From IMG/VR virus record IMGVR_UViG_3300048591_000883, positions 1-32,019 of that record: 32,019 nt of DNA, one strand, 5' to 3'. Positions 1 through 21,710 of this stretch are shown here, piece after piece (position 1 is the stretch's first letter; each line of letters opens with the position of its first letter). The position numbers and the translations under genes were made by a program. The notes under the pieces are model-generated. The model saw only the letters and a list, made by a program, of their open reading frames with translations, ran no database searches and was not told the origin of the DNA. Source of the stretch: a virus.

Positions 1-38
1 ATCGCGCGATCGGTGCGATCTCCGAGGGAGGTCGCTGA
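1..38 (+). CDS. C-terminal end of an upstream gene (partial)
   Basis: Reading from base 3, a short open frame ends in Ala-Ile-Gly-Ala-Ile-Ser-Glu-Gly-Gly-Arg and a TGA at 36-38. That stop shares one base with the ATG of the next gene (TGATG). The one-base overlap is the coupling seen repeatedly in this operon, which is the only reason to call it coding. Too little is present to identify a product. Confidence 0.3.
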   Translation, partial: RAIGAISEGGR

Positions 39-871
39 TGTCGCTGCGCATCATCACCGCCGATCAACGGCTCGCCGAGGCTCATGCCAAGACCACAATG
101 GCAATCTTCGGGCCCTCGGGCGTTGGCAAGACTTCACTGCTCAGGACCCTGCCGCCGGCGGAGACGCTGTGCATCGATCTCGAGGCCGGCATGAAATCCG
201 TCCAGGATTGGCCGGGCGACAGCATCCCGGTGCGCAGCTTCGCTGACGCGCTCGACATCGGCTGCCTGGTCGGCGGCGTTAATCCGGCGGCCGACGAGAA
301 GACCTTCTTCTGCGAAAGCCACTACCGGCACCTGGCCGAGACCTATCCCGATCTCGTCCGCATGATCGCCGGCAAGCGCATCATCTTCGTCGACTCGATC
401 ACCGACCTGACGCGGCTCGCCATGGCCTGGGCGAAGACGCGGCCCGAGGCGCAGTCGGAGCGGACCGGCAAGCCGGACACCCGCGGCGCCTACGGTCTCT
501 TGGCGCGTGAAACCATCGGGCTCCTGAAGCACCTGCAGCACGCGCCCGGCCGCACCGTGATCTTCGTCGGCATCCTGGAGCGCATCACCGACGAGTTCAA
601 CCGCGTCACCTGGCAGCCGCAGATGGAAGGCGGCAAAGCCGCCCGCGAGCTCCCCGGCATCGTCGACCAGGTGATCTCCATGAGCCGGTTCACGGCGGAC
701 GGCGACGCGTGGCGCCACGAGCCCGACCGCGGCGACGTGCGTCGCCTGATCTGCCAGGCCGCCAACCCCTTCGGCCTGCCGGGCAAGGATCGTTCCGGCC
801 GTCTCGACCTCACCGAGCCGCCCGACCTCAGCGCGCTCATTCGCAAGATCAATCAGCCCAGCAAAGGATGA
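38..871 (+). CDS. Sak4/RecA-like AAA family ATPase
   Basis: A 277-aa P-loop ATPase. Walker A is GPSGVGKT at residues 25-32. A Walker B-like strand IIFVDS lies at about 115-120. The compact single RecA-like fold and its position match phage Sak4-type recombinases, which promote annealing or strand exchange together with a phage ssDNA-binding protein. The gene directly downstream looks like such a partner. The ATG at 38 is preceded by GAGGGAGG with about 6 nt spacing, and its first base is shared with an upstream stop. The gene overlaps the next ATG candidate at 868 (ATGA). The family name is inferred from motifs and neighbours. A generic AAA ATP-binding protein is the fallback. Confidence 0.75.
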   Translation: MSLRIITADQRLAEAHAKTTMAIFGPSGVGKTSLLRTLPPAETLCIDLEAGMKSVQDWPGDSIPVRSFADALDIGCLVGGVNPAADEKTFFCESHYRHLAETYPDLVRMIAGKRIIFVDSITDLTRLAMAWAKTRPEAQSERTGKPDTRGAYGLLARETIGLLKHLQHAPGRTVIFVGILERITDEFNRVTWQPQMEGGKAARELPGIVDQVISMSRFTADGDAWRHEPDRGDVRRLICQAANPFGLPGKDRSGRLDLTEPPDLSALIRKINQPSKG

Positions 872-2968: not shown

Positions 2969-4255
2969 ATGAGCTTCTCGCCATCGCCGCTCCAGGCCAA
3001 AGCGATTGCGGCCATCAAGGACTGGTTCACGAACCGCACCGCTGCACAGCAGGTGTTTCGGGTCTTCGGCTATGCCGGCACCGGCAAGACCACCATCACG
3101 CGGCATGCCATCGCCGAGCTTGGTCTCGACACCGGCGCGAGCGACGGCGTCCTCTATGCGGCCTTCACCGGCAAGGCGGCCCTGGTGATGACCCGCAAGG
3201 GCACGCCGGCCTCGACCATCCACTCCCTGATCTACCGCGTCTCCGAGGCGACGCCCGCCGAGATCGAAAAGGTCAAGGAGGAGATCGCCGATCTCAAGGC
3301 GAAGATCGCGTCCATGGCTGCGGCCGAGCGCCTGTTCGCGGAGTCGCAGCTTCGCTCGCTCGAACTGCGGCTATCCGACATCCACAAGCCGCGCTTTGTC
3401 CTGAACGAGCAGTCGATGCTGCGCGAAGCCAAGCTCCTTGTCCTCGACGAGGTGTCGATGGTGGGCGATGACATGGCGCGCGATCTGCTTGCCTTCGGCA
3501 AACCGATCCTGGTGCTGGGCGATCCCGGCCAGCTGCCGCCGGTCAGGGGTGAAGGCGCATTCACGCAATGTCAGCCCGATGTGATGCTGACCGAGATCCA
3601 TCGCCAGGCCGGCGAGAGCGCCATTATCCGTCTCGCCACGCTGGCGCGCGAAAGCAAATCCATCCCCTACGGCAAGCACGACGAATTCGTCTGGAAGATG
3701 CGCAGGCTCGATGTCGCGGCCGAGCAGATGCTGCGCGGCGGTCAGGTGATCTGCGGCCGCAACGCCACGCGTCTGCAGCTCAACCTCGCCATGAAGCGGG
3801 CGTCCGGCTTCGATGGTGTCTATCCGACCGGCCAAGGCGAGAAGATCATCTGCCTCAAAAACCGCAACGACCTTGGCCTGGTCAACGGCATGTTCCTCGA
3901 CCTCGCCGAGGTCAAGGACGAGGACGAGATTTCATTCACTGCCGTTGTCACCACCGAGGACGGCCAGAAGATCGGAGGCACGAACGGTGCGCGCGAGCGC
4001 TTCCGCATCTACAAGGGCTACTTCGACGATCACGTCACGCCCGATCCGGAACGCGAGCGCCGCGATCACTGGAAGAAAAAGACCATCATCGAAGCGGTCT
4101 GGGGCTGGGCCATCACCTGCCACAAGGCGCAGGGCTCGCAGTGGGAGAACATCATCGTCTACGACGATGGCCTTGGCCGCACGGCCGAAGATCGTGCCCG
4201 CTGGCTCTACACCGCCATCACCCGCGCCGAGCGCGGTCTCGTGCTGCTCGATTGA
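2969..4255 (+). CDS. SF1 DNA helicase, RecD/Dda-like
   Basis: A 428-aa helicase with all main superfamily 1 motifs in order. Motif I is GYAGTGKT (34-41), Ia lies around FTGKAA (66-71), II is LVLDEVS (157-163), III is GDPGQLPPV (184-192), IV-like is EIHRQ (209-213), V is CHKAQGSQWE (384-393) and VI is YTAITRAERG (414-423). The CHKAQG signature is typical of the RecD/TraA/Dda branch, which moves 5' to 3' on DNA. Residues about 95-135 form a charged, probably coiled-coil insertion. It follows the Cas4-like nuclease by 3 nt and precedes the primase by 7 nt, fitting a replication/recombination operon. Full length, with no missing motif. Confidence 0.85.
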   Translation: MSFSPSPLQAKAIAAIKDWFTNRTAAQQVFRVFGYAGTGKTTITRHAIAELGLDTGASDGVLYAAFTGKAALVMTRKGTPASTIHSLIYRVSEATPAEIEKVKEEIADLKAKIASMAAAERLFAESQLRSLELRLSDIHKPRFVLNEQSMLREAKLLVLDEVSMVGDDMARDLLAFGKPILVLGDPGQLPPVRGEGAFTQCQPDVMLTEIHRQAGESAIIRLATLARESKSIPYGKHDEFVWKMRRLDVAAEQMLRGGQVICGRNATRLQLNLAMKRASGFDGVYPTGQGEKIICLKNRNDLGLVNGMFLDLAEVKDEDEISFTAVVTTEDGQKIGGTNGARERFRIYKGYFDDHVTPDPERERRDHWKKKTIIEAVWGWAITCHKAQGSQWENIIVYDDGLGRTAEDRARWLYTAITRAERGLVLLD

Positions 4256-4262: not shown

Positions 4263-7205
4263 ATGCTCGACCTCAATGACGCCGAACCTGCACGACCGGC
4301 CGAGCGGTTTGATCTCGATGAAATCGTCGCGCGGCTGCGCGCGACTGCCGAGCAATGGGTGCCGCGGCTGTTCCCGAATGGCCGACGGGTGGGCGATGAA
4401 TGGCGGCTTGCCAATATCCGCGGCGATGCGCCGCGCAAGAACGGCTCCTGCGTGATTGCGCTCACCGGCGAGCACGCCGGGGACTGGATCGATTTCGACG
4501 GCGGCCAGGGCGGCGGCCCCATCAACACGCTCGAACACGCGATACATCGGAGCGGGCGTGAGCTGATCAGTTATGCGGCCGAGCTGACCAGGACCGGCCC
4601 GCAGCCGAAGCGGGGCGCCACCAGGCCCTCGTCCAAGCAGGCCGACCAGGCCCGCGAGATCGACCATATCCTCTCCAAGGCCGTGCCGCTCGCAGGCACG
4701 TTGGGCAAACGCTATCTCGCGTCGCGCGGGCTGACGATTCCGGATTGTGCGGACCTTCTGTTCCACCCGGACCTAACACACTGGGAGAGCCGGCGCGGCT
4801 TCCCCGGGCTCGTCGCGGTGGTGCGGGACGGCAGCGGCAATCGGATCGCGCTCCACCGCACCTATCTCGCCGACGATGGCGCCGCCAAAGCGCCGGTCGA
4901 TAACCCGCGCAAAATGCTGGCCTCGATCGCCGGCGGCGCCGTGCGCCTTGCCAATCTCACCGACGATCATGTCGTCGGACTCGCCGAAGGCATCGACACC
5001 GCGCTCTCGGTGATGGCAGCGTGTGCGCGCCTGCCGGTCTGGGCCACGCTGTCGACGTCCAACCTGGAACAGGTCGTTTTGCCCGCGGAAGTGAGGAAGG
5101 TCGTGCTTCTGACCGACCACGACCCCTCCAACGCCGGCGCGCGCGCTGCCGCCGCCGCCGCCGCCCGACTGCACGCCGAGGGTCGGCGCGTCTTCATCGC
5201 CATGCCGCCCAAGGAGGGCGACGACTTCAACGACCTGTTGATGCGCGAAGGCATTGATGCGGTGCGCCGAGTCGTTGAGTCAGCGGTCGAGTGGAACGGC
5301 CAGGGCACCACAGAAAGCATGGCTCTGGTCGTTGACGGCGGCACCCACAGGCCGATCGGCCTGGCCTTGCCCGACCATGCACGACCCCAACTGCGCGCCG
5401 ACAACGGCGATCTCGCCGGTGCGGTCTCGCAGGCCTGGCAAATCCTCCTCACCGCCAACAATCCGCCCTGGCTGTTCCGTGCCGCCGGATGTCCGACCTG
5501 GGTGGTGCGCGACGATGACGGTTTGCCCATGGCGAGGCCGCTCACCGAGGATCGCTTGCGCCCGGTGCTCGCCCAGCTCGTCGACTGGCGAAAGATCAAT
5601 CGCAACGGCGAACTTATTCCCGCCCATCCACCCATGGCGGTGATCAAATCAATCCTCGCCACGCCCGATCCGGCGCTGCCAGTGCTGTCCGGCATCGTCA
5701 CGACGCCGGTGTTCGGCCGCGACGGCGAGCTCATCACCGAACCCGGCTACCATGCGCCCGCGCGCCTGCTCTACGACCCGCCCAAGGACTTTGTCCTGCC
5801 GCCTATAGCCGCCCGACCGACGCCGGCGAACATCACCGCCGCGCGATCATTATTGCTCGACGATCTCCTGGGGGAGTTTCCGTTCACCGGCGAAGCCGAA
5901 CGTGCGCATGCGCTCGCGCTGCTGCTTGTTGGCTTCGTGCGCGCCATGATCGACGGGCCGACGCCGTTGCACCTGGTCGAGAAGCCGACCCAAGGCACCG
6001 GCGCAACCCTGATGGTGGATGTGATATCGCTGATCGCGACCGGCTGCCGCGCGAGCGTCATGGTCGAGGGCAGCGACGATGAGGAATGGCGCAAGCGCCT
6101 GACCGCCAAGCTGCGCCAGATCCCCTCCGTCGTGCTGATCGACAATCTGCGACGGCCGCTCGACTCCTCGGCGCTCGCGGCCGCGCTCACCGCGCCGTTC
6201 TGGGAAGATCGCGTCCTCGGCGTCTCGGAAACCACGCGGCTGCCGATCCGCTGCATCTGGATTGCCACCGGCAACAATGCCGAGTTCTCGGGTGAGATGG
6301 CGCGCCGTCTTGTGCGCATCCGTCTCGACGCCCGCGTCGACCAGCCCTGGCGCCGCAATGGCTTCCGCCATCCCGATCTCATTGGCTGGGTTCATGCCAA
6401 CCGGGCGGATCTTGTGGCCGCCTGTCTATCGCTCTGCCGCGGCTGGATCGCGGCCGGAATGCCACGCGGGAGCAAACACATCGGCAGCTTCGAAGCCTGG
6501 TCCGCCCTCATGGGCGGCCTGCTCGAGGCGATCGGAGTGCGAGGCTTCCTCGGCAACATCGACGAGATGCTCGAAGCCTCCGACGGCGAGGGCGCGGTCT
6601 GGCGCGTGTTCGTCGGTCAATGGTGGGATCGCTTCGGCACGGCAGAGGTTGGCACCAGCGGACTCTATGAGCTCGCCGTCAATTGCGAGCCTCCGCTGCC
6701 GCTCGGCACCGGCGGCGACCGATCCCAGCGCACCCGGCTCGGCAAAGCGCTCGTGCGCATGCGCGACCGGGTCTTCGACATCGCCGGACTGAAAGCGCGC
6801 ATCCGGGCGATCGGGGTTTCCCATCAGGCGCGCCGCTGGCAGCTCACGCTCGAAGGGGAACATGGGGAACGTGGGGAACGTTTTTCGGAGTCGTCCGATT
6901 TCGGGAAAGGGGAACGTCAGGCTGCTTTAGAGCAACGTTCCCCTCAACAGTCCCCGGCCTATCCCATTGATGGACAAGGCGTCGGGGAACGTGGGGAACC
7001 TGGGGAACGTTTTTCCGACCTACGCGCACGCGCGCGCGTACACAATAATAAAGAAGAGCAAACACGTTCCCCACGTTCGTCACGTTCCCAAAACGGTGTT
7101 GGTTCAGACGCTTACGACGGGGAACATGGCGGGGAACGTCATAACGCACGTTCCCCACGTTCCCCGCTGAATGAATCGCCCGATTGGCTGAAGGGGGTGC
7201 CGTGA
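4263..7205 (+). CDS. Toprim primase / AAA helicase fusion, 980 aa
   Basis: A large replication protein. Residues 1-100 resemble a primase N-terminal domain but without zinc cysteines. Residues 235-325 are a Toprim domain (EGIDTAL from Glu242, TDHD with Asp285 and Asp287, DDFND at 320-324). Residues 540-700 are an AAA-type helicase-like region with a Walker B-like VVLIDN (623-628) and sensor-like WIATGNN (666-672). The expected Walker A reads PTQGTGATL (575-583), with Ala where the ATP-contacting Lys should be. Residues about 865-968 are low complexity, made of GER/SPR units encoded by a 9-bp DNA repeat. ATG 4263 gives MLDLNDAEPA. The longer frame upstream overlaps the helicase and is rejected. 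The stop overlaps an ATG (TGATG). Confidence 0.8.
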   Translation: MLDLNDAEPARPAERFDLDEIVARLRATAEQWVPRLFPNGRRVGDEWRLANIRGDAPRKNGSCVIALTGEHAGDWIDFDGGQGGGPINTLEHAIHRSGRELISYAAELTRTGPQPKRGATRPSSKQADQAREIDHILSKAVPLAGTLGKRYLASRGLTIPDCADLLFHPDLTHWESRRGFPGLVAVVRDGSGNRIALHRTYLADDGAAKAPVDNPRKMLASIAGGAVRLANLTDDHVVGLAEGIDTALSVMAACARLPVWATLSTSNLEQVVLPAEVRKVVLLTDHDPSNAGARAAAAAAARLHAEGRRVFIAMPPKEGDDFNDLLMREGIDAVRRVVESAVEWNGQGTTESMALVVDGGTHRPIGLALPDHARPQLRADNGDLAGAVSQAWQILLTANNPPWLFRAAGCPTWVVRDDDGLPMARPLTEDRLRPVLAQLVDWRKINRNGELIPAHPPMAVIKSILATPDPALPVLSGIVTTPVFGRDGELITEPGYHAPARLLYDPPKDFVLPPIAARPTPANITAARSLLLDDLLGEFPFTGEAERAHALALLLVGFVRAMIDGPTPLHLVEKPTQGTGATLMVDVISLIATGCRASVMVEGSDDEEWRKRLTAKLRQIPSVVLIDNLRRPLDSSALAAALTAPFWEDRVLGVSETTRLPIRCIWIATGNNAEFSGEMARRLVRIRLDARVDQPWRRNGFRHPDLIGWVHANRADLVAACLSLCRGWIAAGMPRGSKHIGSFEAWSALMGGLLEAIGVRGFLGNIDEMLEASDGEGAVWRVFVGQWWDRFGTAEVGTSGLYELAVNCEPPLPLGTGGDRSQRTRLGKALVRMRDRVFDIAGLKARIRAIGVSHQARRWQLTLEGEHGERGERFSESSDFGKGERQAALEQRSPQQSPAYPIDGQGVGERGEPGERFSDLRARARVHNNKEEQTRSPRSSRSQNGVGSDAYDGEHGGERHNARSPRSPLNESPDWLKGVP
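6855..7165 (+). repeat. Iteron-like 9-bp repeat array, GGGGAACGT, both orientations
   Basis: About fifteen copies of GGGGAACGT or close variants. Direct units start at 6855, 6864, 6873, 6909, 6985, 6994, 7003, 7119 and 7131. Inverted units (ACGTTCCCC) start at 6935, 7064, 7073 (degenerate), 7082, 7148 and 7157. Several are exact tandem triplets with no spacer. Between the direct block ending at 7011 and the inverted block starting at 7064 lie an alternating purine-pyrimidine tract (7021-7044, CG/CA/TA steps) and an AT-rich run (about 7044-7062). Repeats facing an AT-rich segment are typical of origins or partition sites. Here they also encode the C-terminal tail of the primase. Role as an origin is inference. 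Confidence 0.75.
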
Positions 7206-7566: not shown

Positions 7567-7763
7567 GGTGGATGCCCAAGGGATACGGCGGCCACCGGCG
7601 TCCGCCCGAAGAGGTCAAGCGCGAGGGCTGGCACGAGCACGGCATCCTGGTGGTCAGCGCGGACGATCAGCGTCTCACCTGGCCTGAGCGTGAACTGATC
7701 CGGCAACTCGGGGGAAGACTGTACGGGAAGCGATCATCGAACAAGGAGGCGTGCCATGGCTGA
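7563..7763 (+). CDS. Small conserved phage protein, 66 aa
   Basis: Begins at GTG 7563, overlapping the previous stop as GTGA. An in-frame ATG at 7572 is the alternative. The protein is basic and soluble, starting MRWMPKGYGGHRRPPEEVKR, with a central LTWPERELIRQLG segment. I recognise it as a recurrent small protein beside DUF6362 genes in alphaproteobacterial prophages, but no function is known to me. The end overlaps the next ATG by 8 nt, so the two are translationally coupled. Confidence 0.6.
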   Translation: MRWMPKGYGGHRRPPEEVKREGWHEHGILVVSADDQRLTWPERELIRQLGGRLYGKRSSNKEACHG

Positions 7764-8184
7764 TTGGACGCCGGCTTGTGTCGAAGCGCGGCTGCACGAG
7801 GCGGCCGACGTGATGAAGCGTCTGCCCGAGGTCCGCGTGCAGGGCTACTACTCGCTGTGGCCGAAGATGCTCGCCGAGTTCAGCGATTTGGTTGGCCAGG
7901 AACCTCAGCGCCTCAAGCGTCCTCCTCCGTCTCCCGATGCCATCACGCGGATGGAGGAGACACTGGGCTGGTTGCGGTGGCTTGAAGCCGAGGATGCGAA
8001 GCTCGCCTGGGCGCGCGCCGAGCGCACCCCATGGAAAATGATCTGCTGGCGGTTCGGTATCGCTCGCGCCACCGCGCATCGGCGCTGGCAATATGTGCTG
8101 AGCGTGATCACGTGGCGGCTCAACGGGCGGAGGGTGCCGGGGAAGCGGTCACGGCGATTCGTGGTCGAAAGAGCCAAGGCTTGA
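7756..8184 (+). CDS. DUF6362 protein with helix-turn-helix-like C-terminus
   Basis: A 142-aa basic protein opening WTPACVEARLHEAADVMKRLPEVRVQGYY, of which the RLPEVRVQGYY stretch is the family signature I recall for DUF6362. The second half (WKMICWRFGIARATAHRRW, about residues 93-111) reads as a helix-turn-helix, with sequence-like RATAHRRW as the recognition helix. A DNA-binding regulator, for instance of late phage genes, is plausible but not shown. It is the last gene of the early operon and appears intact to its end. Only 4 nt separate its stop from the convergent merR stop, so this is the left edge of the mercury cargo. Confidence 0.65.
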   Translation: MADWTPACVEARLHEAADVMKRLPEVRVQGYYSLWPKMLAEFSDLVGQEPQRLKRPPPSPDAITRMEETLGWLRWLEAEDAKLAWARAERTPWKMICWRFGIARATAHRRWQYVLSVITWRLNGRRVPGKRSRRFVVERAKA

Positions 8185-8188
8185 GATT

Positions 8189-8629
8189 CTATGCTTCAGC
8201 CGGCGGACGACGAACGTCGAGAACGTCAAGCACTGGGCATTCTGGTGCGGTAGTTCCAGTGCAACGCGCAACTGTCTTCGCCAGCAACCGCTCCAGCTTG
8301 CGAAGGTCAGCTATCTTGGCGCGAATCTCGTCGAGATGATGCGAAGCGATTTCGCGAACTTCCCGACATGAGGCTTTTGCGGGGCCGCCGAGCCGAATCA
8401 GCGCGCGGACCTGATCGAGAGAAAATCCCAACTCCCGCGACCGGCGGATAAAGGCCAGGATACGAAGGTGAGTGGCGTCATAGACGCGACGCCCACCGGC
8501 TGTGCGCGGCGGCGCCGGGAACATCTTGATCCGCTCGTAGTAGCGGATTGTCTCGATGTTCACGCCGGTAAGTTCCGACAAATTACCGATTGTTAACGCT
8601 TCCGCTCGCGCATCTGTGATCGAGCCCAT
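8189..8629 (-). CDS. merR: Mercury-responsive regulator MerR
   Basis: A 146-aa MerR-family activator/repressor. The N-terminal winged helix (LTIGNLSELTGVNIETIRYY, residues 12-31) binds DNA and a long helix follows for dimerisation. The three Hg(II)-binding cysteines are present at 88 (KASC), 123 and 131 (C-x7-C, then PVLD), the pattern of mercury sensors rather than of CueR or ZntR. It is transcribed divergently from merT across a shared operator at 8641-8671, so it should repress without mercury and unwind the promoter when mercury binds. The ribosome site is weak (AAGG 9 nt upstream). It converges on the DUF6362 gene. Confidence 0.93.
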   Translation of the reverse strand: MGSITDARAEALTIGNLSELTGVNIETIRYYERIKMFPAPPRTAGGRRVYDATHLRILAFIRRSRELGFSLDQVRALIRLGGPAKASCREVREIASHHLDEIRAKIADLRKLERLLAKTVARCTGTTAPECPVLDVLDVRRPPAEA

Positions 8630-8640
8630 GGTGACCGGCC

Positions 8641-8671
8641 TTGCTCCTGTAGTGACTACAGGAAGTATACC
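8641..8671 (+). promoter_or_regulatory. MerR-controlled merT promoter/operator
   Basis: -35 TTGCTC (8641-8646) and -10 TATACC (8666-8671) are separated by 19 bp, the overlong spacing that MerR-family activators correct by twisting DNA. The spacer contains a perfect 17-nt dyad, CCTGTAGTGACTACAGG (8646-8662, centre G8654). The merR start lies only 11 bp away on the other side, so the same site should autoregulate merR. Confidence 0.92.
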
Positions 8672-8697
8672 GCCCGCGATCCAGAGAGGACAACGAA

Positions 8698-9111
8698 ATG
8701 AGCGAAACGCGCAGCGCCATGGGTTCTATTGCATTGAGCGATCGCCCTGCCAACGCCTCGCCCGGCAAGGGTCAAAAGCTGGCGGCGGCGGGCGGGATCA
8801 TCGGTGCGCTCGCCGCATCGTCGTGCTGCATTTTGCCGGTCGTTCTCTTTAGCCTTGGTGTCAGTGGCGCATGGATTGGAAACTTCACGCAGCTTGCGCC
8901 CTATCAGCCGTATTTCATTGCGGCCACGCTCGCTTTCATCGGCACCGGCTATTGGTTGGTCTATCGCTCGTCAAAGGTCGCCTGTGCAGAGGGTGAGGCT
9001 TGCGCACGGCCATTGCCTAACAGATTCGTTAAGATCGCGCTCATTGCGGCGACCGTCATTGTTCTTGCCGCCTGGGCCTTCGACTATGTCGCCCCCTACG
9101 TGCTGTCCTAA
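8698..9111 (+). CDS. merT: Mercuric ion transporter MerT
   Basis: A 137-aa inner-membrane protein that carries Hg(II) from MerP to the cytoplasm for reduction by MerA. Three hydrophobic segments are visible (about residues 30-56, 70-88 and 110-134). The first contains the vicinal Cys43-Cys44 pair (SSCCILP). A cytoplasmic loop holds Cys96 and Cys102, the second mercury-binding site of MerT. The N-terminus has about 25 extra hydrophilic residues before the first segment, longer than in Tn501 MerT. GAGAGGA lies 7 nt before ATG 8698. It is the first gene of the mer transcript. Confidence 0.93.
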   Translation: MSETRSAMGSIALSDRPANASPGKGQKLAAAGGIIGALAASSCCILPVVLFSLGVSGAWIGNFTQLAPYQPYFIAATLAFIGTGYWLVYRSSKVACAEGEACARPLPNRFVKIALIAATVIVLAAWAFDYVAPYVLS

Positions 9112-9128
9112 CCAATGGAGCAAATCAA

Positions 9129-9413
9129 ATGATGAAGTACGTCATCCCTGTTACGCTCTCGCTCGGCATCATCGGTCCTTCGTCTGCTCGTGCAGCGGAA
9201 AAAACGGTGACGCTCGCGGTGCAGAACATGTACTGCGCCGCGTGCCCGCACACCGTTAAATCGAGCCTGCAATCCGTGCCGGGTGTCAAAGCGGTTTCGG
9301 TGTCATTCAAAAACAAGACTGCCATCGTGACCTTCGACGACGCAAAGACCAACGTGAAGGCGCTGACGACAGCGACGACGAACGCCGGCTATCCGTCCTC
9401 TCCGAAAGGCTGA
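9129..9413 (+). CDS. merP: Periplasmic mercury-binding protein MerP
   Basis: A 94-aa heavy-metal-associated (HMA) domain protein. A cleavable signal peptide ends near SARA-AE (residues 19-24). The metal site is MYCAACPHT (Cys36, Cys39), followed by the ferredoxin-like HMA fold (SVPGVKAVSVSF, then ATTNAGYPS). It would scavenge Hg(II) in the periplasm and hand it to MerT. GGAG is 8 nt before ATG 9129. A second ATG follows immediately at 9132. The size is usual for the family. Confidence 0.93.
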   Translation: MMKYVIPVTLSLGIIGPSSARAAEKTVTLAVQNMYCAACPHTVKSSLQSVPGVKAVSVSFKNKTAIVTFDDAKTNVKALTTATTNAGYPSSPKG

Positions 9414-9420
9414 GCCTCCG

Positions 9421-9672
9421 GTGAAAGCAGCCGGTACCACAATTGGAGCAGTGCTCGTTGGCGCCCTTGCGGTGGTTTGCTGCGCCACGCCAGCGATTAT
9501 TGCGGGCATCAGCGTGACGGCGCTCGCAGCTTGGCTCTCCTATTCGGGATACGTGCTGATCGCAGCCGTGCTGATTGCCGGTGCGGTCGGCTGCGTCCTG
9601 TGGCTCCGGCGTCGCGGCATCAATGCTCAAGCGTGCTGCGGGCCAGCAAAGAAGGCGTCAAATCATGAGTGA
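9421..9672 (+). CDS. merF: Mercury transport protein MerF
   Basis: An 83-aa membrane protein with two hydrophobic helices (about 8-35 and 42-63). The vicinal Cys20-Cys21 lies in the first helix (VVCCATP) and a second pair, Cys72-Cys73, in the C-terminal tail (ACCGP). This is the MerF arrangement, a second Hg(II) importer alongside MerT. It starts at GTG 9421, 7 nt after the merP stop, and its end overlaps the merA start by 8 nt. Confidence 0.9.
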   Translation: MKAAGTTIGAVLVGALAVVCCATPAIIAGISVTALAAWLSYSGYVLIAAVLIAGAVGCVLWLRRRGINAQACCGPAKKASNHE

Positions 9673-11092
9673 CTGTTGCGCGTCTGGAAATCGCGGCAAG
9701 CAATTTGATCTCGCCGTCATCGGTGCGGGGTCGGCAGGCTTTTCGGCGGCGATCACTGCGGCAGAACAAGGTGCGCAGGTGGCTCTGATTGGTCATGGCA
9801 CTCTTGGCGGCACATGCGTCAACATCGGTTGCGTGCCGTCAAAAACACTAATCCGGGCCGCTGAGACACAGCATCAGGCCAGCGCCGCCGCGCGCTTCGC
9901 AGGCATCAGGGCCAAAGGGCAGGTGGGCGATTGGACAGCGACCGTCCAGCAGAAAGACGAGCTCGTTTCGAGCCTGCGCCAATCGAAATACGCCGATCTT
10001 TTACCGGCTTATAACAACATCTCTTACGTCGAAGGGCAGGCCCGCCTTGCCGAAGGTGGCGTGGCCATCAATGGCGATCTGATCAAGGCGCCGCGCCTTA
10101 TCATCGTCACGGGCGCACGGCCTGCAGTGCCCTCGATCCCCGGTCTTGATGCTGTCGAGTATCTGACAAGCACCACCGCGCTATCCCTTGAATGCCTCCC
10201 GAAGTCATTGCTTGTGATCGGCGGGGGTTACATCGGCGCTGAACTAGCGCAGATGTTTGCGCGCATGGGCGTCAAAGTCACAGTCGTTTGCCGCAGCCAC
10301 CTGTTGCCGGCGGCGGAGCCGGAAATCTCGGATGCTCTGTCAGGCTATTTCCGAGACGAAGGCATCGCTCTTGAGTGCGGGGTCACTTACAAGCAGGCGC
10401 GGCAGACTGAAGCTGGAGCGGCTCTTGTCGTCACGCGCGAAGCTCGGGATACGACGCTGACAGCCGAGCGCATTTTAGTTGCGACGGGTCGCGCCCCCAA
10501 TGTCGAGGGGCTTGGCTTGAGAGAAGCCAAGATCGCGCAAGCGGCAAACGGCAGCATTCAGGTGGACGATCGAATGCAGACCACGCGCCCTGGCGTGTAT
10601 GCGGCGGGCGATGTCACCGGCCACGATCAATTCGTTTACATGGCTGCTTACGGTGCGAAGCTTGCGGCCAAGAACGCTCTCAACGGAAACAGCCTGCGCT
10701 ATGACAACACGGCTATGCCGTCGGTCGTATTCACTGATCCGCAGGTGGCAAGCGTCGGGTTGACCGAAGGCGCGGCCCGAGCCGCCGGCCGTGACGTGAG
10801 AGTGTCCGTGCTACCCCTCAGTGCCGTGCCGCGCGCATTGGCGGCGCGAGATACGCGCGGCCTCATCAAGCTTGTTGCCGACAGAAAGAACCGCAAACTC
10901 CTGGGCGCGCACATTCTCGCGCCCGAAGGAAGCGACAGCATTCAGACTGCGGCGCTCGCCATCCAGCAGGGTCTGACGACCAACGATCTTGCCGACGCGA
11001 TCTTTCCGTATCTCACAACCGTCGAAGGCTTGAAGCTTGCGGCATTGGGATTCGAGAAAGATGTCGCGAAACTGTCCTGCTGTGCCGGGTAG
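9665..11092 (+). CDS. merA: Mercuric reductase MerA (short form)
   Basis: A 475-aa cytoplasmic flavoprotein reducing Hg(II) to volatile Hg(0) with NADPH. Motifs are an FAD dinucleotide fold GAGSAG (20-25), redox-active GGTCVNIGCVPSK (Cys51, Cys56), a second GGGYIGAELAQ nucleotide fold near the middle, an FAD motif ending AAGDVTG, and the C-terminal vicinal pair Cys472-Cys473 (SCCAG) that delivers Hg(II) to the active site of the partner subunit. The N-terminal HMA domain of longer MerA proteins is absent. Only a short MSDCCASG leader with its own Cys pair remains. ATG 9665 overlaps the end of merF. A longer in-frame start inside merF is rejected. Confidence 0.95.
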   Translation: MSDCCASGNRGKQFDLAVIGAGSAGFSAAITAAEQGAQVALIGHGTLGGTCVNIGCVPSKTLIRAAETQHQASAAARFAGIRAKGQVGDWTATVQQKDELVSSLRQSKYADLLPAYNNISYVEGQARLAEGGVAINGDLIKAPRLIIVTGARPAVPSIPGLDAVEYLTSTTALSLECLPKSLLVIGGGYIGAELAQMFARMGVKVTVVCRSHLLPAAEPEISDALSGYFRDEGIALECGVTYKQARQTEAGAALVVTREARDTTLTAERILVATGRAPNVEGLGLREAKIAQAANGSIQVDDRMQTTRPGVYAAGDVTGHDQFVYMAAYGAKLAAKNALNGNSLRYDNTAMPSVVFTDPQVASVGLTEGAARAAGRDVRVSVLPLSAVPRALAARDTRGLIKLVADRKNRKLLGAHILAPEGSDSIQTAALAIQQGLTTNDLADAIFPYLTTVEGLKLAALGFEKDVAKLSCCAG

Positions 11093-11096
11093 TTGA

Positions 11097-11483
11097 ATGA
11101 ACGTTGCAGCCCAATCCGCGAGGGACTGGCTCGGTAAGGCCCATACCAGCATCATCGCGTGGTGGCTCCCTAAAGGTGCCGTAGTCGCTGCGTTGTTCGC
11201 CCCGGTGTCGGCACGCGCGGCCGTTTGGTCCGCTGCGCTCATTTGGATGGGCACAGCGTGCATCCTCAATGCAAAGCGTTGCGGGCGCACGCACTGCCGC
11301 TACACGGGACCGTACTATCTCGCCATGATCCTTCCTGTGCTTGTGCTTGCATCCGGCCTCGCGTCAGCAAACTTCTACGGTTGGCTCGCGCTTGCCGCTT
11401 TGATCGTCGGTGGCGGCTGGATCATTTGGTGGGCTACGGAACAAGCGTGGGGCGATTCTCGTAGTGCTAAGGATTGCTTCTAG
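11097..11483 (+). CDS. Unknown membrane protein of the mer operon, 128 aa
   Basis: Starts 4 nt after merA, so it is almost certainly in the mer transcript. Four hydrophobic stretches are visible (about 17-38, 40-58, 73-92 and 95-113). Between the second and third sits a conserved-looking polar block with Cys55, Cys62, His66 and Cys67 (TACILNAKRCGRTHC), then RYTGPYY. Cys/His clusters at a membrane face suggest metal handling, so a role in mercury uptake or sensing is plausible. It is not MerC, MerE or MerD by length or motif order. I do not recognise a named family with certainty. Confidence 0.75.
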   Translation: MNVAAQSARDWLGKAHTSIIAWWLPKGAVVAALFAPVSARAAVWSAALIWMGTACILNAKRCGRTHCRYTGPYYLAMILPVLVLASGLASANFYGWLALAALIVGGGWIIWWATEQAWGDSRSAKDCF

Positions 11484-11560
11484 CTGATCTCGACTTGGCC
11501 GTGTTGCCACCTGATTTCGGGAACAATGGAGCGCAGCGGAGATTCAATACCCGATTCTTC

Positions 11561-11620
11561 TGTCAAGATCATTTTGGAACGTGAGACATTTTTTGGTGAG
11601 ACATTTTTCGGCGAGACGCA
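11561..11620. repeat. Tandem 15-bp repeats, possible IS21-like end remnant
   Basis: After TGTCAAGATCATTTTGGAAC (from 11561) come GTGAGACATTTTTTG (11581-11595), GTGAGACATTTTTCG (11596-11610) and a decayed third unit starting GCGAGAC (11611). The block is AT-richer than its surroundings. Multiple short repeats beginning with TG are typical of the ends of IS21-family elements. No transposase gene or second end is in the window, so this would be a solitary remnant at the right edge of the mer cargo. Confidence 0.4.
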
Positions 11621-11625
11621 GTTGA

Positions 11626-11808
11626 CCGGTTCAGCGTAATTTCGCGTCAAGCTCGGGCGAGGCGCGCTCGACGATCAGCAAGACCGACGCACGGGTCCTC
11701 CCTGGCGCAAAATGGTATGCGGGGGGCAATGGCCCGAAATTTCGCTACAGCCAGCCGCAAAATCTGAGTTACCAGTTACCACCCGACGTTGGCGCCTGTG
11801 TGCCCTAG
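11626..11808 (+). pseudogene. Possible 3' remnant of a truncated gene
   Basis: A 60-codon stretch without a start codon runs from 11626 to a TAG at 11806-11808. It includes GAKWYAGGNGPKFRYSQPQN, and the strong intrinsic terminator follows its stop by 2 nt. That spacing suggests the 3' end of a gene whose 5' part was lost at the mer/IS junction. Open frames of this length occur by chance in GC-rich DNA, so this is tentative. No family is recognised. Confidence 0.25.
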
Positions 11809-11884
11809 AGGCGCGCAACGGCGCGCTTTTTTTCGCTAGGCCGCCTGGTAACCGCGCGTGGTAACCCGCCGAAGCCAGTTACCA
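11768..11884. repeat. Five GTTACCA heptamers around the terminator
   Basis: GTTACCA occurs at 11768-11774, 11775-11781 and 11878-11884, and inverted (TGGTAAC) at 11846-11852 and 11859-11865. They lie just upstream of the methyltransferase operon. They could be operator sites or a small partition/origin-like cluster. Nothing else in the sequence decides this. Confidence 0.5.
11811..11833 (+). terminator. Intrinsic (rho-independent) terminator
   Basis: GCGCGC (11811-11816), loop AACG, GCGCGC (11821-11826), then seven T residues (11827-11833). A 6-bp all-GC stem followed by a T run is a strong terminator on the plus strand. It would stop mer-derived or early-operon transcription before the methyltransferase genes. 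Confidence 0.8.
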
Positions 11885-12001: not shown

Positions 12002-13300
12002 GTGGCGCAGATCGCAGCCTCGATCGTCGAATTCGGCTGGACCAATCCGATCCTGGTCGATGCGGAGGGCGGCATCGTTGCCGGCCACGGGCGGCTCCTT
12101 GCCGCACACAAGCTCGGCCTCGACACAGTCCCGGTGGTCGTCCTCGGTCACATCACACCGGCCCAGCGGCGCGCTTACGTCATCGCCGATAACAAGCTCG
12201 CGCTCAATGCCGGCTGGAACGAGGAACTGCTCGCAGCCGAGCTGCATGCGCTGAATGGCGACGGCTTCGACCTTGCGCTCACCGGCTTCTCGGAGACCGA
12301 GCTCGATGCGCTCCTGGCGCCGCTCGGCGAGGAGACGGATGCCGCGGACGGTGTCGGCGAGGACGCTGCAGACGAGATGCCGGCACCGCCACGCGAGCCA
12401 ATCTCGCGCGCGGGCGATCTCTGGCTGATCGGCAATCACCGCCTGCTGTGCGGCGATGGCACCGACCCTGCGGCCGTGGCGCGCGTCATGAACGGCGAGC
12501 GCGCCGCGCTCGTCTTCACGTCGCCGCCCTACGGTAATCAGCGCGACTACACGACCGGCGGCGTGGGCGATTGGGACACGCTGATGCGCGGCGTGTTCGC
12601 CGAGCTGCCGGTCACGGAGGCCGCTCAGGTTCTGATCAATCTCGGTCTCATTCACCGGGACAACGAATGGCAGCCCTATTGGCAAGCCTGGCTCGATTGG
12701 ATGCGCGAGCAGGGCTGGCGCCGCTTCGGCTTCTACGTCTGGGACCAGGGACCGGGATTGCCAGGCGATTGGAACGGACGCCTGGCGCCGGCTTTCGAGT
12801 TCGTCTTTCACTTCAATCGCAAGGCCCGCAAGCCGAACAAGATCGTGCCCTGCAAATGGGCCGGCCACGTCAACGACACGCATGGCGGCATCCGCCACAA
12901 GGACGGGCATGTCGGCGAGTGGACGCATGCCGGACAGGGCGTCCAGGACACGCGCATCCCGGACAACGTCATCCGCATCACGCGGCACAAGGCGCGCGGC
13001 ATCGAGACCGAGCACCCCGCGGTTTTCCCGGTCGCGCTGCCGGAATTCGTGATGCGCGCCTACAGCAACGAACGGGACATCGTCTATGAGCCGTTCGCCG
13101 GCTCGGGCACCGCCATCATCGCGGCGGAACGCGCCGGCCGGCGCATGAGGGCAATCGAGATCGCGCCCGAATACGTCGATGTCACGCTGCGCCGATGGCG
13201 CAAGCTCTTCCCTGACCAGCCAGTGAAACTCGATGGCGAAGGCCAAACCTTCGAAGCGGTCGCGCGTCAGCGTGGGGTCGCAATCCCAGCCGACGACTGA
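12002..13300 (+). CDS. ParB-like / DNA methyltransferase fusion, 5'-frameshifted
   Basis: The open frame from GTG 12002 gives 432 aa. Residues 1-115 are most of a ParB/sulfiredoxin-like domain (VAGHGRLLAAHKLG at 26-39). Residues 135-420 are a class-beta amino-methyltransferase, with catalytic TSPPYG at 173-178 and the AdoMet site FAGSGT at about 365-370 placed after it. SPPY is the variant more often seen in N4-cytosine enzymes, so target base may differ from the downstream paralogue. The natural N-terminus (from 11911) is separated by a 2-bp frameshift. The GTG has no ribosome site, so whether a shortened protein is made is unclear. The methyltransferase half is intact. No restriction endonuclease gene is near, consistent with a phage orphan enzyme protecting its DNA. 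Confidence 0.75.
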   Translation: MAQIAASIVEFGWTNPILVDAEGGIVAGHGRLLAAHKLGLDTVPVVVLGHITPAQRRAYVIADNKLALNAGWNEELLAAELHALNGDGFDLALTGFSETELDALLAPLGEETDAADGVGEDAADEMPAPPREPISRAGDLWLIGNHRLLCGDGTDPAAVARVMNGERAALVFTSPPYGNQRDYTTGGVGDWDTLMRGVFAELPVTEAAQVLINLGLIHRDNEWQPYWQAWLDWMREQGWRRFGFYVWDQGPGLPGDWNGRLAPAFEFVFHFNRKARKPNKIVPCKWAGHVNDTHGGIRHKDGHVGEWTHAGQGVQDTRIPDNVIRITRHKARGIETEHPAVFPVALPEFVMRAYSNERDIVYEPFAGSGTAIIAAERAGRRMRAIEIAPEYVDVTLRRWRKLFPDQPVKLDGEGQTFEAVARQRGVAIPADD

Positions 13301-14531
13301 GCCACTGCAAGTTGAGAGCTGGCCGATCGAGCGGCTCCTGCCGTATGCGGCGAACGCTCGAACGCATCCCGAAGAGCAGGTCGCACAGATCGCCGGCTCG
13401 ATCGCGGAGTTTGGGTTCAACGTACCGTGCCTTGTGGACGAGCGCGGCGTCTTGGTCGCGGGTCATGGCCGCGTGCTTGGCGCGATGCGGCTCGGGTTGC
13501 AGCAGGTCCCGGTGATCCGGCTCGGGCACCTGACCGACGCCCAGGCGCGCGCGTTCCGGCTCGCCGATAACCGCATCGCGCTTAATGCCGGCTGGGATGA
13601 TGCGCTCCTGTCCGCGGAGCTTGAGCGGCTGAAGGAGGACGGCGTCAACCTCGAGCTGTTGGGCTTTGCCGAGGACGAACTCGACCGGCTGCTCGACGCG
13701 CTCGACGCAGGCGGAGCATCCGAGGAAGAGGAAGACGTTCCCGAACCACCGACGCAAGCCGTCACCCGTCCGGGTGATCTTTGGTTGCTTGGATCGCACC
13801 GTCTTCTGTGTGGCGATGCCACCGTCGCAACCGATGTCGAGCGGCTACTCGATGGGGCGCGACCGCACCTGATGGTGACCGACCCGCCTTACGGGGTCGA
13901 TTACGATCCCAACTGGCGAGTCGAGTCCGGTGTTTCCTCGACCGCGCGGCCTGGAAAGGTCAACAACGACGACCGCGCCGATTGGCGCGAGGCCTGGAGC
14001 CTGTTTCCCGGTGATGTCGCTTACGTCTGGCACTCCGGGATCCACGCACGGACGGTCGCGGAGAGTCTCGATGCTTGCGGCCTCCTGATCAGGGCGCAGA
14101 TCGTATGGGCCAAGCCACGCCTGGTGCTCTCCCGCGGAGATTACCACTGGCAGCATGAACCGTGCTTCTACGCAGTGCGCAAGGGAGCGAGCGGCCACTG
14201 GCAGGGCGCGCGCGACCAAACCACGTTATGGACCATCGCCACCGGCGAGAACGACGAGGCGACCGAGCACGGAACGCAGAAGCCGGTCGAGTGCATGCGC
14301 CGGCCGCTCGTCAACAACAGCGCGAAGGGCGATCTCGTCTATGAGCCCTTCGCCGGATCGGGTTCGACACTGATCGCTGCCGCGTCCGTCGGCCGCGTTT
14401 GCCTCGCCATAGAAATCGACCCGCGCTATTGCGACGTTACTATCGAGCGCTGGCAGCGCCACACCGGGAAAGCGGCATCACTCGCAAGCGATGGGCGGGG
14501 CTTTGATGAGGTGAAGGGCGAGCGATTGTAG
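13233..14531 (+). CDS. ParB-like / DNA methyltransferase fusion (N6-adenine type)
   Basis: An intact 432-aa paralogue of the previous gene, overlapping its end by 68 nt in another frame. The ParB-like domain spans about residues 25-150 (NARTHPEEQVAQIAGSIAEFG at 41-61, VAGHGR at 75-80). An acidic linker (ASEEEEDVPEPP) leads to a beta-class methyltransferase with DPPYG at 217-221 and FAGSGS at 373-378. DPPY plus this order is typical of N6-adenine enzymes of the CcrM/Dam-like beta group. Such fusions are common in alphaproteobacterial prophages, and the role of the ParB part is not established. A convergent terminator follows 12 nt after its stop. Confidence 0.85.
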   Translation: MAKAKPSKRSRVSVGSQSQPTTEPLQVESWPIERLLPYAANARTHPEEQVAQIAGSIAEFGFNVPCLVDERGVLVAGHGRVLGAMRLGLQQVPVIRLGHLTDAQARAFRLADNRIALNAGWDDALLSAELERLKEDGVNLELLGFAEDELDRLLDALDAGGASEEEEDVPEPPTQAVTRPGDLWLLGSHRLLCGDATVATDVERLLDGARPHLMVTDPPYGVDYDPNWRVESGVSSTARPGKVNNDDRADWREAWSLFPGDVAYVWHSGIHARTVAESLDACGLLIRAQIVWAKPRLVLSRGDYHWQHEPCFYAVRKGASGHWQGARDQTTLWTIATGENDEATEHGTQKPVECMRRPLVNNSAKGDLVYEPFAGSGSTLIAAASVGRVCLAIEIDPRYCDVTIERWQRHTGKAASLASDGRGFDEVKGERL

Positions 14532-15711: not shown

Positions 15712-16269
15712 ATGGGAATCTCGATCCGCGCTTATGCCAAGGCACGTGGCGTAAGCCATGTGGCCGTGCTCAAGGCCGCCAAGGCCGGACGCATCCCGCT
15801 TGAGCCTGATGGTACGATCGACCCGGCGAAAGCCGACGCCGCCTGGCAGCGCTCCACCGATCCTGGCCGCTCGAAAGCAAAGCTGAAGGCGCCTAACGAA
15901 AAACTTCGCCCGGTTGGCGAGGCTGCGCTCGGCTCGGTGCGCGAGACGCTGAAAGAGCAGGGCTTGCCCGCCGGTGGCAACGTCACCTTCGTCCAGGCCC
16001 GCACCGCGCACGAAATCGCCAAGGCCCATCTCGCTCGCCTGCGCCTGCAGCGCATGAAGGGCGAGCTCGTTGATCGCGCGCGGGCGACGGCGCTGGTGTT
16101 TCGGCTGGCACGCGAGGAACGGGACTCCTGGCTCAACTGGCCGGCTCGGGTCGCGGCCCTGATCGCGGCCGATCTCGGTGTCGAGGCGCACGCGGTCCAG
16201 AAACTCATAGAGACGCATGTCCGCGGTCACCTCGCCGAGCTCGCCGAGATCCGGCCAGAGCTCCGCTGA
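15712..16269 (+). CDS. Terminase small subunit (Nu1-like)
   Basis: A 185-aa protein. Residues 2-45 (ISIRAYAKARGVSHVAVLKA...IDPAKADAAW) form a winged helix-turn-helix of the type that recognises phage packaging sites in Nu1-like small terminases. A Lys/Pro linker follows, then a helical region (AKAHLARLRLQRMKGELVDRARA) that would contact the large subunit. It overlaps the large terminase gene by 53 nt, supporting a functional pair. It is the first gene of the late operon. Confidence 0.75.
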   Translation: MGISIRAYAKARGVSHVAVLKAAKAGRIPLEPDGTIDPAKADAAWQRSTDPGRSKAKLKAPNEKLRPVGEAALGSVRETLKEQGLPAGGNVTFVQARTAHEIAKAHLARLRLQRMKGELVDRARATALVFRLAREERDSWLNWPARVAALIAADLGVEAHAVQKLIETHVRGHLAELAEIRPELR

Positions 16270-18229
16270 CCTGTTCGGTTTCGAGGGCGCCGACGAGCTT
16301 GGCCAGTCCTGGCGCGACGGGCTCACCCCCGATCCGGCGCTGACCGTCTCGGAATGGGCCGACCGCCACCGGGTGCTGAGCCCGCGCGCGTCGGCCGAGC
16401 CAGGCCGCTACCGCACCGATCGCACGCCCTACATCCGGGAAATTGTCGACGCGCTGTCGCCGATGCATCCGGCGCGCCGCATCGTGGTGATGAAATCGGC
16501 CCAGGTCGGCTTCACCGAAGGCGGCAACAACTGGATCGGATACGTCATTCATCATGCGCCGGGCCCGATGCTCGCGGTGCAGCCGACCGTCGAACTCGCC
16601 AAGCGCTTTTCCCGCCAGCGCCTTGAGCCCCTGATCCATGAGAGCCCTGCGCTCCGGGAGCGCGTCAAGCCGGCGCGCTCGCGTGATGCTGGCAACACGG
16701 TGCTCTCGAAGGAGTTTCCCGCCGGACTCCTGGTCATCACTGGGGCGAACAGCGCCGTCGGCTTGCGCTCGATGCCGGCGCGCTACCTGTTCCTCGATGA
16801 GGTCGATGCCTATCCGCCGTCGGCTGACGAGGAAGGCGACCCGGTCGCTCTCGCCGAGGCACGCACCCGCACCTTCTCGTGGCGCTCCAAGGTTCTCCTC
16901 GGGTCGACGCCGACCATCCATGGCCTATCGCGCGTGGAGCGCGAGTACGAGGCCTCGGACCAGCGCCGCTACTTCGTGCCGTGCCCGCACTGCCGGGAGA
17001 TGCAGTGGCTCAGGTTCGAACGGTTGCGCTGGGACAAGGGCAAGCCCGACACCGCACATTATCTCTGCGCCTCTTGCGAAGAACGGATCGAGGAGCACCA
17101 CAAGACGGCCATGCTCGAGGCCGGGGAGTGGCGTGCCACCGCGGACTCGGAAGACCCGGGCACCATCGGATTTCATATTTCGGCGCTCTACTCGCCGGTC
17201 GGCTGGCTCTCCTGGGAGCACATCGCGCGGCTGTGCGAAGCTGCGACCACCGACGAAGCTAGGCGCAGCTTCAAGAACAGCGTGCTTGGCGAGACCTGGG
17301 TCGAGACCGGCGAGGCGCCGGACTGGCAGCGCCTTTACGAGCGCCGCGAGTCCTGGCAGATCGGCACGGTACCGAGCGGCGGCTTGTTCCTGACGGCGGG
17401 CGCCGACGTCCAGAAGGACCGCATCGAGGTCGATGTCTGGGCCTGGGGCCGAGGTCTCGAAAGCTGGCTCGTCGACCACATCGTGGTCGAAGGCGGACCC
17501 GAGCAAGCCGAGACCTGGGAGGAGCTTGGTCTCCTCCTCGATCGCACCTGGCTTCATGCGCACGGTACGCGGCTTGGCCTTGCAAAGCTCGCGATCGACA
17601 CCGGGTACGAGGCGCCGGCCGTCTACGCCTGGGCTCGCAGGGCCGGCCATGCGCAGGTTGCGCCGATCAAGGGCGTCGAGGGCTTCAACCGTACGGCGCC
17701 GGTTGCCGGTCCGACCCACGTCGACGTCACAGAGGGTGGCAAGAAGCTTCGACGCGGGGCGCGGCTCTGGACGATCGCGGTCGCCACGTTCAAGAGCGAG
17801 ACCTATCGCTACTTGCGATTGTCGGCGCCGACCGACGAGGAGATCGCGGCAGGCGCAAAAATTCCGGCCGGCTACGTGCACTTGCCGCGTGGCACCGAAG
17901 CCGAGTGGGTGAAGCAGCTCGTCGCCGAGCAGCTTGTCACGGTGAAGACCAAGCGCGGTTTCAGCCGGCTGGAATGGCAGAAGCTGCGCGAGCGCAACGA
18001 AGCACTCGATTGCAGGGTTTATGCCCGCGCGGCCGCGTGGATCGCCGGCGCCGATCGCTGGACCGAGGCCATGTGGCGCGACCTCGAGCAGCAAGTCGGA
18101 ATCTCGGCCGACGCAAATTCCGACCAGGCCATTGAGCCTGAGGCGGTGGGCGCGACGGTGGCGGGTGTCATCCGACGCCGCCCCGAGCGCCGTGCACGCC
18201 GCGTTTTCCGATCGAGCTATCTGAGCTGA
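16217..18229 (+). CDS. Terminase large subunit (lambda gpA family)
   Basis: A 670-aa packaging motor and nuclease. The ATPase domain has a lambda-type deviant Walker A KSAQVGFT (93-100) and Walker B YLFLDE (190-195). A four-Cys zinc site sits at Cys256, 259, 284 and 287 (PCPHC ... CASC). The C-terminal RNase H-like nuclease begins AGADVQKDRIEVDVW, with Asp397 as the likely first metal ligand. Size and motif order match gpA, so packaging probably starts at cos-type sites with cohesive ends. The start at 16217 lies within the small-subunit gene. The end is rich in Arg (RRRPERRARR), as expected for a portal-contacting tail. Confidence 0.92.
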   Translation: MSAVTSPSSPRSGQSSADLFGFEGADELGQSWRDGLTPDPALTVSEWADRHRVLSPRASAEPGRYRTDRTPYIREIVDALSPMHPARRIVVMKSAQVGFTEGGNNWIGYVIHHAPGPMLAVQPTVELAKRFSRQRLEPLIHESPALRERVKPARSRDAGNTVLSKEFPAGLLVITGANSAVGLRSMPARYLFLDEVDAYPPSADEEGDPVALAEARTRTFSWRSKVLLGSTPTIHGLSRVEREYEASDQRRYFVPCPHCREMQWLRFERLRWDKGKPDTAHYLCASCEERIEEHHKTAMLEAGEWRATADSEDPGTIGFHISALYSPVGWLSWEHIARLCEAATTDEARRSFKNSVLGETWVETGEAPDWQRLYERRESWQIGTVPSGGLFLTAGADVQKDRIEVDVWAWGRGLESWLVDHIVVEGGPEQAETWEELGLLLDRTWLHAHGTRLGLAKLAIDTGYEAPAVYAWARRAGHAQVAPIKGVEGFNRTAPVAGPTHVDVTEGGKKLRRGARLWTIAVATFKSETYRYLRLSAPTDEEIAAGAKIPAGYVHLPRGTEAEWVKQLVAEQLVTVKTKRGFSRLEWQKLRERNEALDCRVYARAAAWIAGADRWTEAMWRDLEQQVGISADANSDQAIEPEAVGATVAGVIRRRPERRARRVFRSSYLS

Positions 18230-21683: not shown

Positions 21684-21710
21684 AGAACCATTTTGAGGAG
21701 ACCCAAAAGA

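Follow-up and report, generated by a model that had tools for sequence, protein, structure and literature searches.

A mer operon within a tailed-phage genome

The stretch of DNA analysed here, called the window throughout, is a 32,019-base virus record from IMG/VR (IMGVR_UViG_3300048591_000883) that carries a mercury-resistance (mer) operon among the genes of a tailed phage. The hallmarks of such a phage, a GpA-type terminase, a lambda-family portal, a capsid protein of family E, and a tape measure protein, were all found in the window; no end repeats were found in the record. From left to right, the gene order is early replication and recombination genes (Sak4-like protein, helicase, primase, TSCPD-domain protein, and DUF6362), mer, two ParB-like/N6_N4 methyltransferases, terminase, portal, capsid, and tail (Table 1). 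A preliminary description, made from the sequence alone, had likewise placed the operon between early phage genes and the methyltransferase and packaging genes.

The same description reported a complete operon with an intact operator, and merR, merT, merP, merF, and merA are indeed all open. The reductase has both its redox cysteine pair (Cys51/56) and its C-terminal pair (Cys472/473), MerT and MerP score above their family cut-offs, and merR is divergently oriented beside an operator in which a 7-bp dyad lies inside a 19-bp spacer, flanked by −35-like and −10-like hexamers. Five other mer loci that were aligned keep the operator core; in L158 the left arm is imperfect (loci in other contigs and genomes are numbered in this way). 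The cysteines of MerR, Cys88, Cys123, and Cys131, are spaced by 35 and 8; in MerR of Tn501 the spacing is 35 and 9. Because MerR falls below the cut-off of its best equivalog family, TIGR02051, its sensing of Hg(II) rather than of another divalent metal is presumptive.

The range first given for the operon, 8189–11483, does hold the five mer genes, but it also covers a sixth gene, orf128, that had gone unnamed, and the inserted segment reaches further, to about 11557. The reported gap of 4 nt between merR and DUF6362 was confirmed, the DUF6362 stop ending at 8184 and the merR stop codon beginning at 8189. So were the reported differences in composition and codon use. The mer segment has a GC content of 60.2 %, close to the low extreme of the window, compared with 66.0 % to its left and 66.9 % to its right, and GC content at third codon positions is 0.62–0.74 in the mer genes against about 0.75–0.89 in most phage genes. 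In a terminator scan, neither the interval from DUF6362 to merT nor the sequence after orf128 gave a hit.

Table 1. Features of the window; the cargo slot and its contents are followed by the other phage genes
Feature	Position	Strand	Evidence or remark
DUF6362 phage gene, left border of cargo slot	7756..8184	+	PF19889 136.4 bits, phrog_6836
Inserted segment relative to empty relatives	~8170..11557	.	Homology breaks in relatives without mer
merR, divergent regulator, convergent with DUF6362	8189..8629	-	PF13411, PF09278; TIGR02051 113.6 bits, below cut-off 150.85
MerR operator/promoter	8641..8671	+	TTGCTC, 19-bp spacer holding perfect 7-bp dyad, TATACC
merT, mercuric ion importer	8698..9111	+	PF02411 90.0 bits (cut-off 32.9); Cys43/44, 96/102
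merP, periplasmic Hg(II) binding protein	9129..9413	+	TIGR02052 112.2 bits (cut-off 92.55); Cys36/39
merF-like importer, GTG start	9421..9672	+	NF033565 25.1 bits, E 1.1e-5, below cut-off 50; Cys20/21, 72/73
merA, mercuric reductase without NmerA domain	9665..11092	+	TIGR02053 543.8 bits (cut-off 454.45)
orf128, small all-helical, probably membrane protein	11097..11483	+	Follows merA in several mer loci outside phages
Probable cohesive-end (cos) site, right border of slot	11693..11731	+	GGGTCCTCC ... TATG/CGGGG; motif and gene order as at the RcBaka end joint
Five GTTNCCA repeats, cosB-like	11768..11884	.	5 of 13 window copies here; also 5 in the first 115 bases of RcBaka
ParB-like/N6_N4 methyltransferase, first	12002..13300	+	PF01555, phrog_498; 5′ end disturbed in window record
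ParB-like/N6_N4 methyltransferase, second	13233..14531	+	PF01555, phrog_498
Sak4-like ssDNA annealing/recombination ATPase	38..871	+	phrog_124 E 2.7e-35, PF13479
Dda-like helicase	2969..4255	+	phrog_325
Primase/helicase	4263..7205	+	Toprim PF13362, DUF7146, phrog_510
Terminase small subunit	15712..16269	+	phrog_57
Terminase large subunit, GpA type	16217..18229	+	PF05876, PF20454
Portal, lambda family	18449..19936	+	PF05136
Major capsid protein, E family	21693..22733	+	PF03864
Tail tape measure protein	25930..29046	+	PF06791

Insertion point and integrity of the locus

A comparison with relatives lacking the operon, proposed in the preliminary description, places the insertion within the final codons of DUF6362. 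Homology of mer-less relatives to the window stops at 8168–8169 (L004, L091, L092, and L093) or at 8129 (L095, L096, L098, and L102), and resumes at 11558–11581 (L093, L095, L096, L098, and L102). In L093 the flanks of the insertion site are just 12 bases apart. The old DUF6362 end (CTGTCAAG, 11560–11567) is still recognizable to the right of the cassette. Based on these homology breaks and this old gene end, the insert extends from about 8170 to 11557 and replaces the last DUF6362 codons.

As this is a metagenomic record, the operon or one phage arm might have been joined artificially in assembly, or two separate elements might merely abut, either of which the preliminary description had named as fatal to its reading. 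The same junctions are, however, present in L083, L084, L156, and L157, and the left one also in the diverged L086. The contig of L084 matches the window at 99.8 % over 4196–21087 and at 100 % over 24194–32019 (the parts fetched), and the contig of L156, from a Pseudolabrys metagenome-assembled genome (MAG), holds a prophage colinear with window positions 1–32019 at 87 %, spanning both flanks. Both flanking modules are therefore colinear in these two carriers, and in mer-less relatives they are joined directly. Odd joints do occur at two carrier places in the MAG G001, one from merA to an inverted portal region and one from inside the terminase large subunit gene (terL) to a tail gene, but chimerism could swap existing mer flanks and could not make several distinct mer-bearing flanks. 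Given the recurring junctions, the colinear prophage, and the mer-less relatives that join the same modules, chimerism and abutting modules were rejected and are scarcely credible.

mer operons usually travel on transposons, and a transposon of the Tn21, Tn501, or Tn5053 type could simply have landed in this phage, as in the P1-like phage SJ1 with its Tn21-type mer. The 7-nt match GAGATTC at both insert edges (8183–8189 and 11539–11545) is either a target duplication or chance. Against such a landing, no long repeats were found at the insert edges, family profile searches found no transposase among the six cassette genes, and no 30-base end of the Tn21/Tn501 type was found within three mismatches in the whole window, a search that did not extend to Tn5053-type ends. 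A megablast search of window positions 8000–12000 against 72,556 plasmids found no match. It is improbable that a transposon accounts for the insert.

A cargo slot bordered by a probable cos site

The right border of the slot is probably a cos site. Rhodobacter phage RcBaka, of the RcC cluster, is reported to have cohesive ends with an 11-base 5′ overhang (PMC8601537). Its end joint, TATG/CGGGG, recurs as the same nine letters at window position 11716, 24 bases past the start of GGGTCCTCC. The gene order around the RcBaka genome ends is also that of the window, and TATGCGGGG lies across the RcBaka end joint. Visual inspection showed a GCGCGC hairpin and then a run of seven T to the right of cos (11811–11833); this hairpin is absent from the terminator-scan list.

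A DUF6362 match was present in 107 locus rows, and in 29 of these TATGCGGGG was found as well, where it would be expected. When loci repeated within a sequence are counted a single time, the 29 rows come down to 25 sequences. The slot is short in 12 of them (44–144 bases), measures 415–2208 bases in eight, and holds mer in five (the window, L083, L084, L156, and L157), where its length is exactly 3532 bases each time. Other cargo identified through Pfam includes a PIN toxin (L091), HigB toxins (L011 and L099), and a Fic protein (L058); by eye, the slot content of L092 and L103 resembles that of L011 and L099, and no open reading frame (ORF) was called in the slot of L004. Inserts between DUF6362 and the methyltransferase are also seen without the exact cos letters (PIN in L106 and L114, GGDEF in L105). 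Among the 18 of 69 DUF6362 loci with at least 80 % identity, mer is present in three (L086, L089, and L090) and absent from 11, and four contigs end before the slot can be read (L094, L097, L101, and L104). Because the slot in relatives is short or filled with toxin–antitoxin or Fic genes, mer is considered to be moron cargo. In relatives the genes on its two sides are neighbours, with empty sites in L093, L095, L096, L098, and L102.

Recent spread of a nearly identical block

Over the block 8185–11736, mismatches to the window number 0 of 3552 in L156, 1 of 3552 in both L157 and L084, 2 of 3552 in L083, and 0 of 3069 in L085. The right flanks (12000–14499) match the window at 82.9 % in L156, 87.5 % in L157, 89.7 % in L083, 100 % in L084, and 87.7 % in L085. 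The left flank (7000–7799) matches at 85.9 % in L156 and at 100 % in L157, L083, and L084; the contig of L085 has no left flank. The right flanks of L157, L083, and L085 are 94–95 % alike and the others are more distant from each other. A fragment, L088, has four adjacent mismatches in 1227 bases and a right flank at 73.0 %. There are no synonymous differences in the block, so protein-level selection cannot explain its identity, and on these comparisons the cassette appears to have moved recently between phages.

Across five backbones, the first right-hand mismatch is at 11737–11766, just past cos. Because the cos region is conserved, the right crossovers can be located no more closely than to a span from about 11692 to a few hundred bases further on. 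On the left, L156 has its crossover immediately past 7845, and the other backbones have theirs farther upstream. Tentatively, the cos-side end may be a swap point where, at cos or immediately beyond it, cargo-bearing right arms were joined to diverged left arms, through annealing-type recombination by the Sak4-like protein or through cohesive-end joining and a second crossover. The phages would then be a transposon-free vehicle sweeping mer through Hyphomicrobiales prophages and, in one lineage, further metal genes also. In the contig of L085 (L215), MauE with DUF305 and a cation-efflux transporter are located among tail genes (10603–11431 and 12708–13751).

Older carriage, selection, and a second slot

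L086 has the left junction of the window, with diverged mer genes (synonymous divergence, dS, 0.44; non-synonymous divergence, dN, 0.05; dN/dS 0.115 over 935 codons), and a MerA tree groups it with the window block (support 95/90). The shared junction, the diverged genes, and the grouping in the tree point to long carriage in the same slot under purifying selection. In L087 (1827–4881) the mer unit is reversed, lacks orf128, and lies between terL and the next gene, a second slot; the same place near terL holds other inserts in relatives L008, L013, and L096. The MerA tree does not order L087 against the chromosomal Pseudolabrys locus L158 and fits one or two captures, therefore a second, separate capture in L087 is likely, but not proven.

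Were the cassette a neutral or decaying passenger without benefit to the lysogen, damaged copies would not surprise, and one G001 copy has merA cut after residue 201 and orf128 is disturbed in L088. Part of the divergence may also predate phage carriage, above all in L087. In contrast, dN/dS is low in all three comparisons (0.115 as above, 0.110 for the window and L087, and 0.130 for L086 and L087), the mer cysteines of the window copy are intact in MerR, MerT, MerP, MerF, and MerA, and the block has spread recently onto several backbones. A mere passenger is highly improbable.

The sixth cassette gene

The product of orf128 has no match in Pfam, NCBIfam, or PHROG at the limits used. Homologues are located after merA in the non-phage loci L159, L160, L177, and L180. 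A search of 199 genomes of the order gave seven matches, one being the query's own carrier genome. merA is directly upstream in two of the remaining six (L223 and L225), L221 has a merR homologue and, by eye, a MerF-like small ORF as neighbours, and for L222, L224, and L226 no mer match was found in the short flanks fetched. On this sampling, orf128 appears to be often, not always, mer-linked, and it may have a metal-related membrane role. Its structure model has four helices at low confidence (mean predicted local distance difference test score 57), too poor for a structure search. In L088 (588–967), orf128 matches in two overlapping frames, with the four adjacent mismatches at window positions 11334–11337, probably a small indel.

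Lysogeny and the probable role of mer

Host genes flank the prophage of L156, which extends from about 48,340 to 94,060 of its contig. Besides full-length head and tail genes, this prophage has a serine recombinase, DUF2924, and a lysozyme. The recombinase assignment is confirmed by Pfam (PF00239/PF07508). In the contigs of L084 and L085 the border between phage and host is at a phosphoketolase gene. With a serine recombinase present in an integrated relative, mercury resistance of the lysogen is the preferred interpretation. Lysogenic conversion by mer, suggested in the preliminary description, is well founded as far as sequence comparison goes; the anatomy given there is right and the meaning very probably so. 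By homology, this is a temperate phage of soil-type bacteria, the Hyphomicrobiales, with integrated relatives in Pseudolabrys MAGs.

Searches around the integrated copies located no attachment site. No tRNA was found in eight G001 pieces, and the one tRNA-Ser in four G002 pieces is about 10 kb from the prophage. The flanks of the L156 prophage share just a 10-mer, which is unconvincing as an attachment core, and a search of G001 and G003 with bluB DNA for its empty site gave no useful match. The phosphoketolase region of L084 has no match in G001–G003, and the best match in a search of 248 genomes of the family reaches 69 %. A weak match to sigma-70 region 2 (23.5 bits, cut-off 24) lies in the early part of the L156 prophage (L211, 3171–3746). 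One chromosome (G001 contig 1, about 1825000–1927000, L202–L207) holds three or more prophage pieces of the window's phage family, some of them rearranged. One G001 mer copy, cut inside merA, is joined to inverted portal-region DNA with about nine shared bases, either a real defect or a misassembly.

The mer genes lie just downstream of the early operon and in the same direction, with no terminator listed in between, so they could be read from that operon and act mainly in lytic infection, as auxiliary genes protecting the infected cell. However, the operon has its own regulator and a promoter of the inducible type, and carriers are found integrated, so that a mainly lytic role is unlikely. 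Overall it is very probable that the cassette is a moron for mercury resistance, that its carrier is a temperate tailed phage of the Hyphomicrobiales with probable cos packaging, and that the cassette has spread between phages and would make lysogens mercury-tolerant. In a lysogen, the mer genes would run from their own MerR-controlled promoter, independently of the phage switch. Hg(II) would cause MerR to turn this promoter on, MerP would catch Hg(II), MerT and MerF would import it, and MerA would reduce it to volatile Hg(0). The lysogen would then tolerate mercury and carriers would be favoured. Phages resident in or infecting the same cell would exchange the block by homologous recombination, with DUF6362 and upstream genes as the left anchor and the conserved cos region as the right one, and the Sak4-like annealing protein of the phage could plausibly help this exchange.

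A number of points weigh against this interpretation. The cos assignment is based on a short motif, gene order, and repeats; a local alignment of the joined RcBaka ends with the window intergenic region scores 18, where shuffles average 17.9 and 981 of 2000 are as good, and L091, L092, L099, L060, and L065 have one GTTNCCA repeat or none. Breakpoints are the sole basis of the recombination mechanism, and the carriers of the identical block may share one sampling site. The window record is without an integrase region, no clear CI-type repressor was found in the complete L156 prophage, and the junctions in the G001 MAG look rearranged. MerR and the MerF-like protein both score below the cut-offs of their families.

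Other features of the window

The early operon contains a small TSCPD-domain protein (PF12637, 7249–7566); an RcBaka gene in a similar place is annotated as ribonucleotide reductase. The first methyltransferase gene is disturbed at its 5′ end (11911–12010): across the region of alignment with L084 the window has 2 bases fewer, and the L084 frame matches from residue 5, not 41, due to a frameshift or a sequencing error.

Comparison with known systems

Transposons and plasmids are the textbook carriers of mer operons, and here such an operon appears to be spread by temperate phages without a visible transposon. This is relevant to the passage of mercury detoxification among environmental Alphaproteobacteria and, with a known insertion point and a sharp right limit at the probable cos site, provides a case for asking how phage morons move.

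MerA-like matches at 1e-40 were found in 14 of 50,697 phage records, just three of them reaching 45 % identity: MT835550, an 11-kb Enterococcus record, and Salmonella phage SJ1. MerT matches two of the phage records. MT835550 (L002, named 'Bacteriophage sp.' in GenBank) has a mer operon, and by eye its annotated bases 1–16841 (16.8 of 34.0 kb) look like bacterial metal and redox genes; it is probably mislabelled. Among viral contigs, six loci have a close MerA relative, and all six have homologous phage sequence of the window's kind. Three of 46 genome loci are the window's phage (L156, L157, and L192).

Chromosomal mer loci of Alphaproteobacteria (L158 in Pseudolabrys, L159 and L160 in Hyphomicrobiales, and L186) have the same gene order, merT-merP-merF-merA with divergent merR, and MerA 77–90 % identical; in L159 and L160 orf128 also follows merA. 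These loci are among housekeeping or metal genes, whereas the window unit is inside a phage. SJ1 (OQ595196) is likewise an annotated phage record with a mer operon, but its mer is of the Tn21 type, with insertion sequence elements and RepFIB genes around it, and the P1-like record is 24.5 kb long. RcBaka, with a large terminase subunit 63.4 % identical, has a record that opens between the last helix-turn-helix gene (36 % to DUF6362) and the first ParB-like gene; it differs in having no mer and, in the annotation seen, no N6_N4 methyltransferase pair beside the end.

Metal-resistance genes have been described on temperate phages, including those of Alphaproteobacteria, in Paracoccus prophages (PMC6536676) and phages of chromium soils (PMC8240259); the available portions of these reports name transporters, reductases, and tellurite and arsenite genes, and no mer operon. 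Among the metal genes that a survey of mercury-contaminated Oak Ridge groundwater found on its viral assemblies, there was no mer (PMC11128244). A literature search, with most subscription papers outside its reach, found no account of a mer operon as a phage moron. Like other phage morons, the window mer is located between phage genes, is absent from near relatives, has lower GC content, and has its own promoter. Typical morons are one or two genes, whereas this is a five-gene metal operon with an extra gene, found on several backbones and, in L087, in a second slot. Phage morons and mer operons are both already known as kinds; a mer moron that lacks a visible transposon, adjoins a probable cos site, and is nearly letter-identical on diverged prophages is new as far as these searches go.

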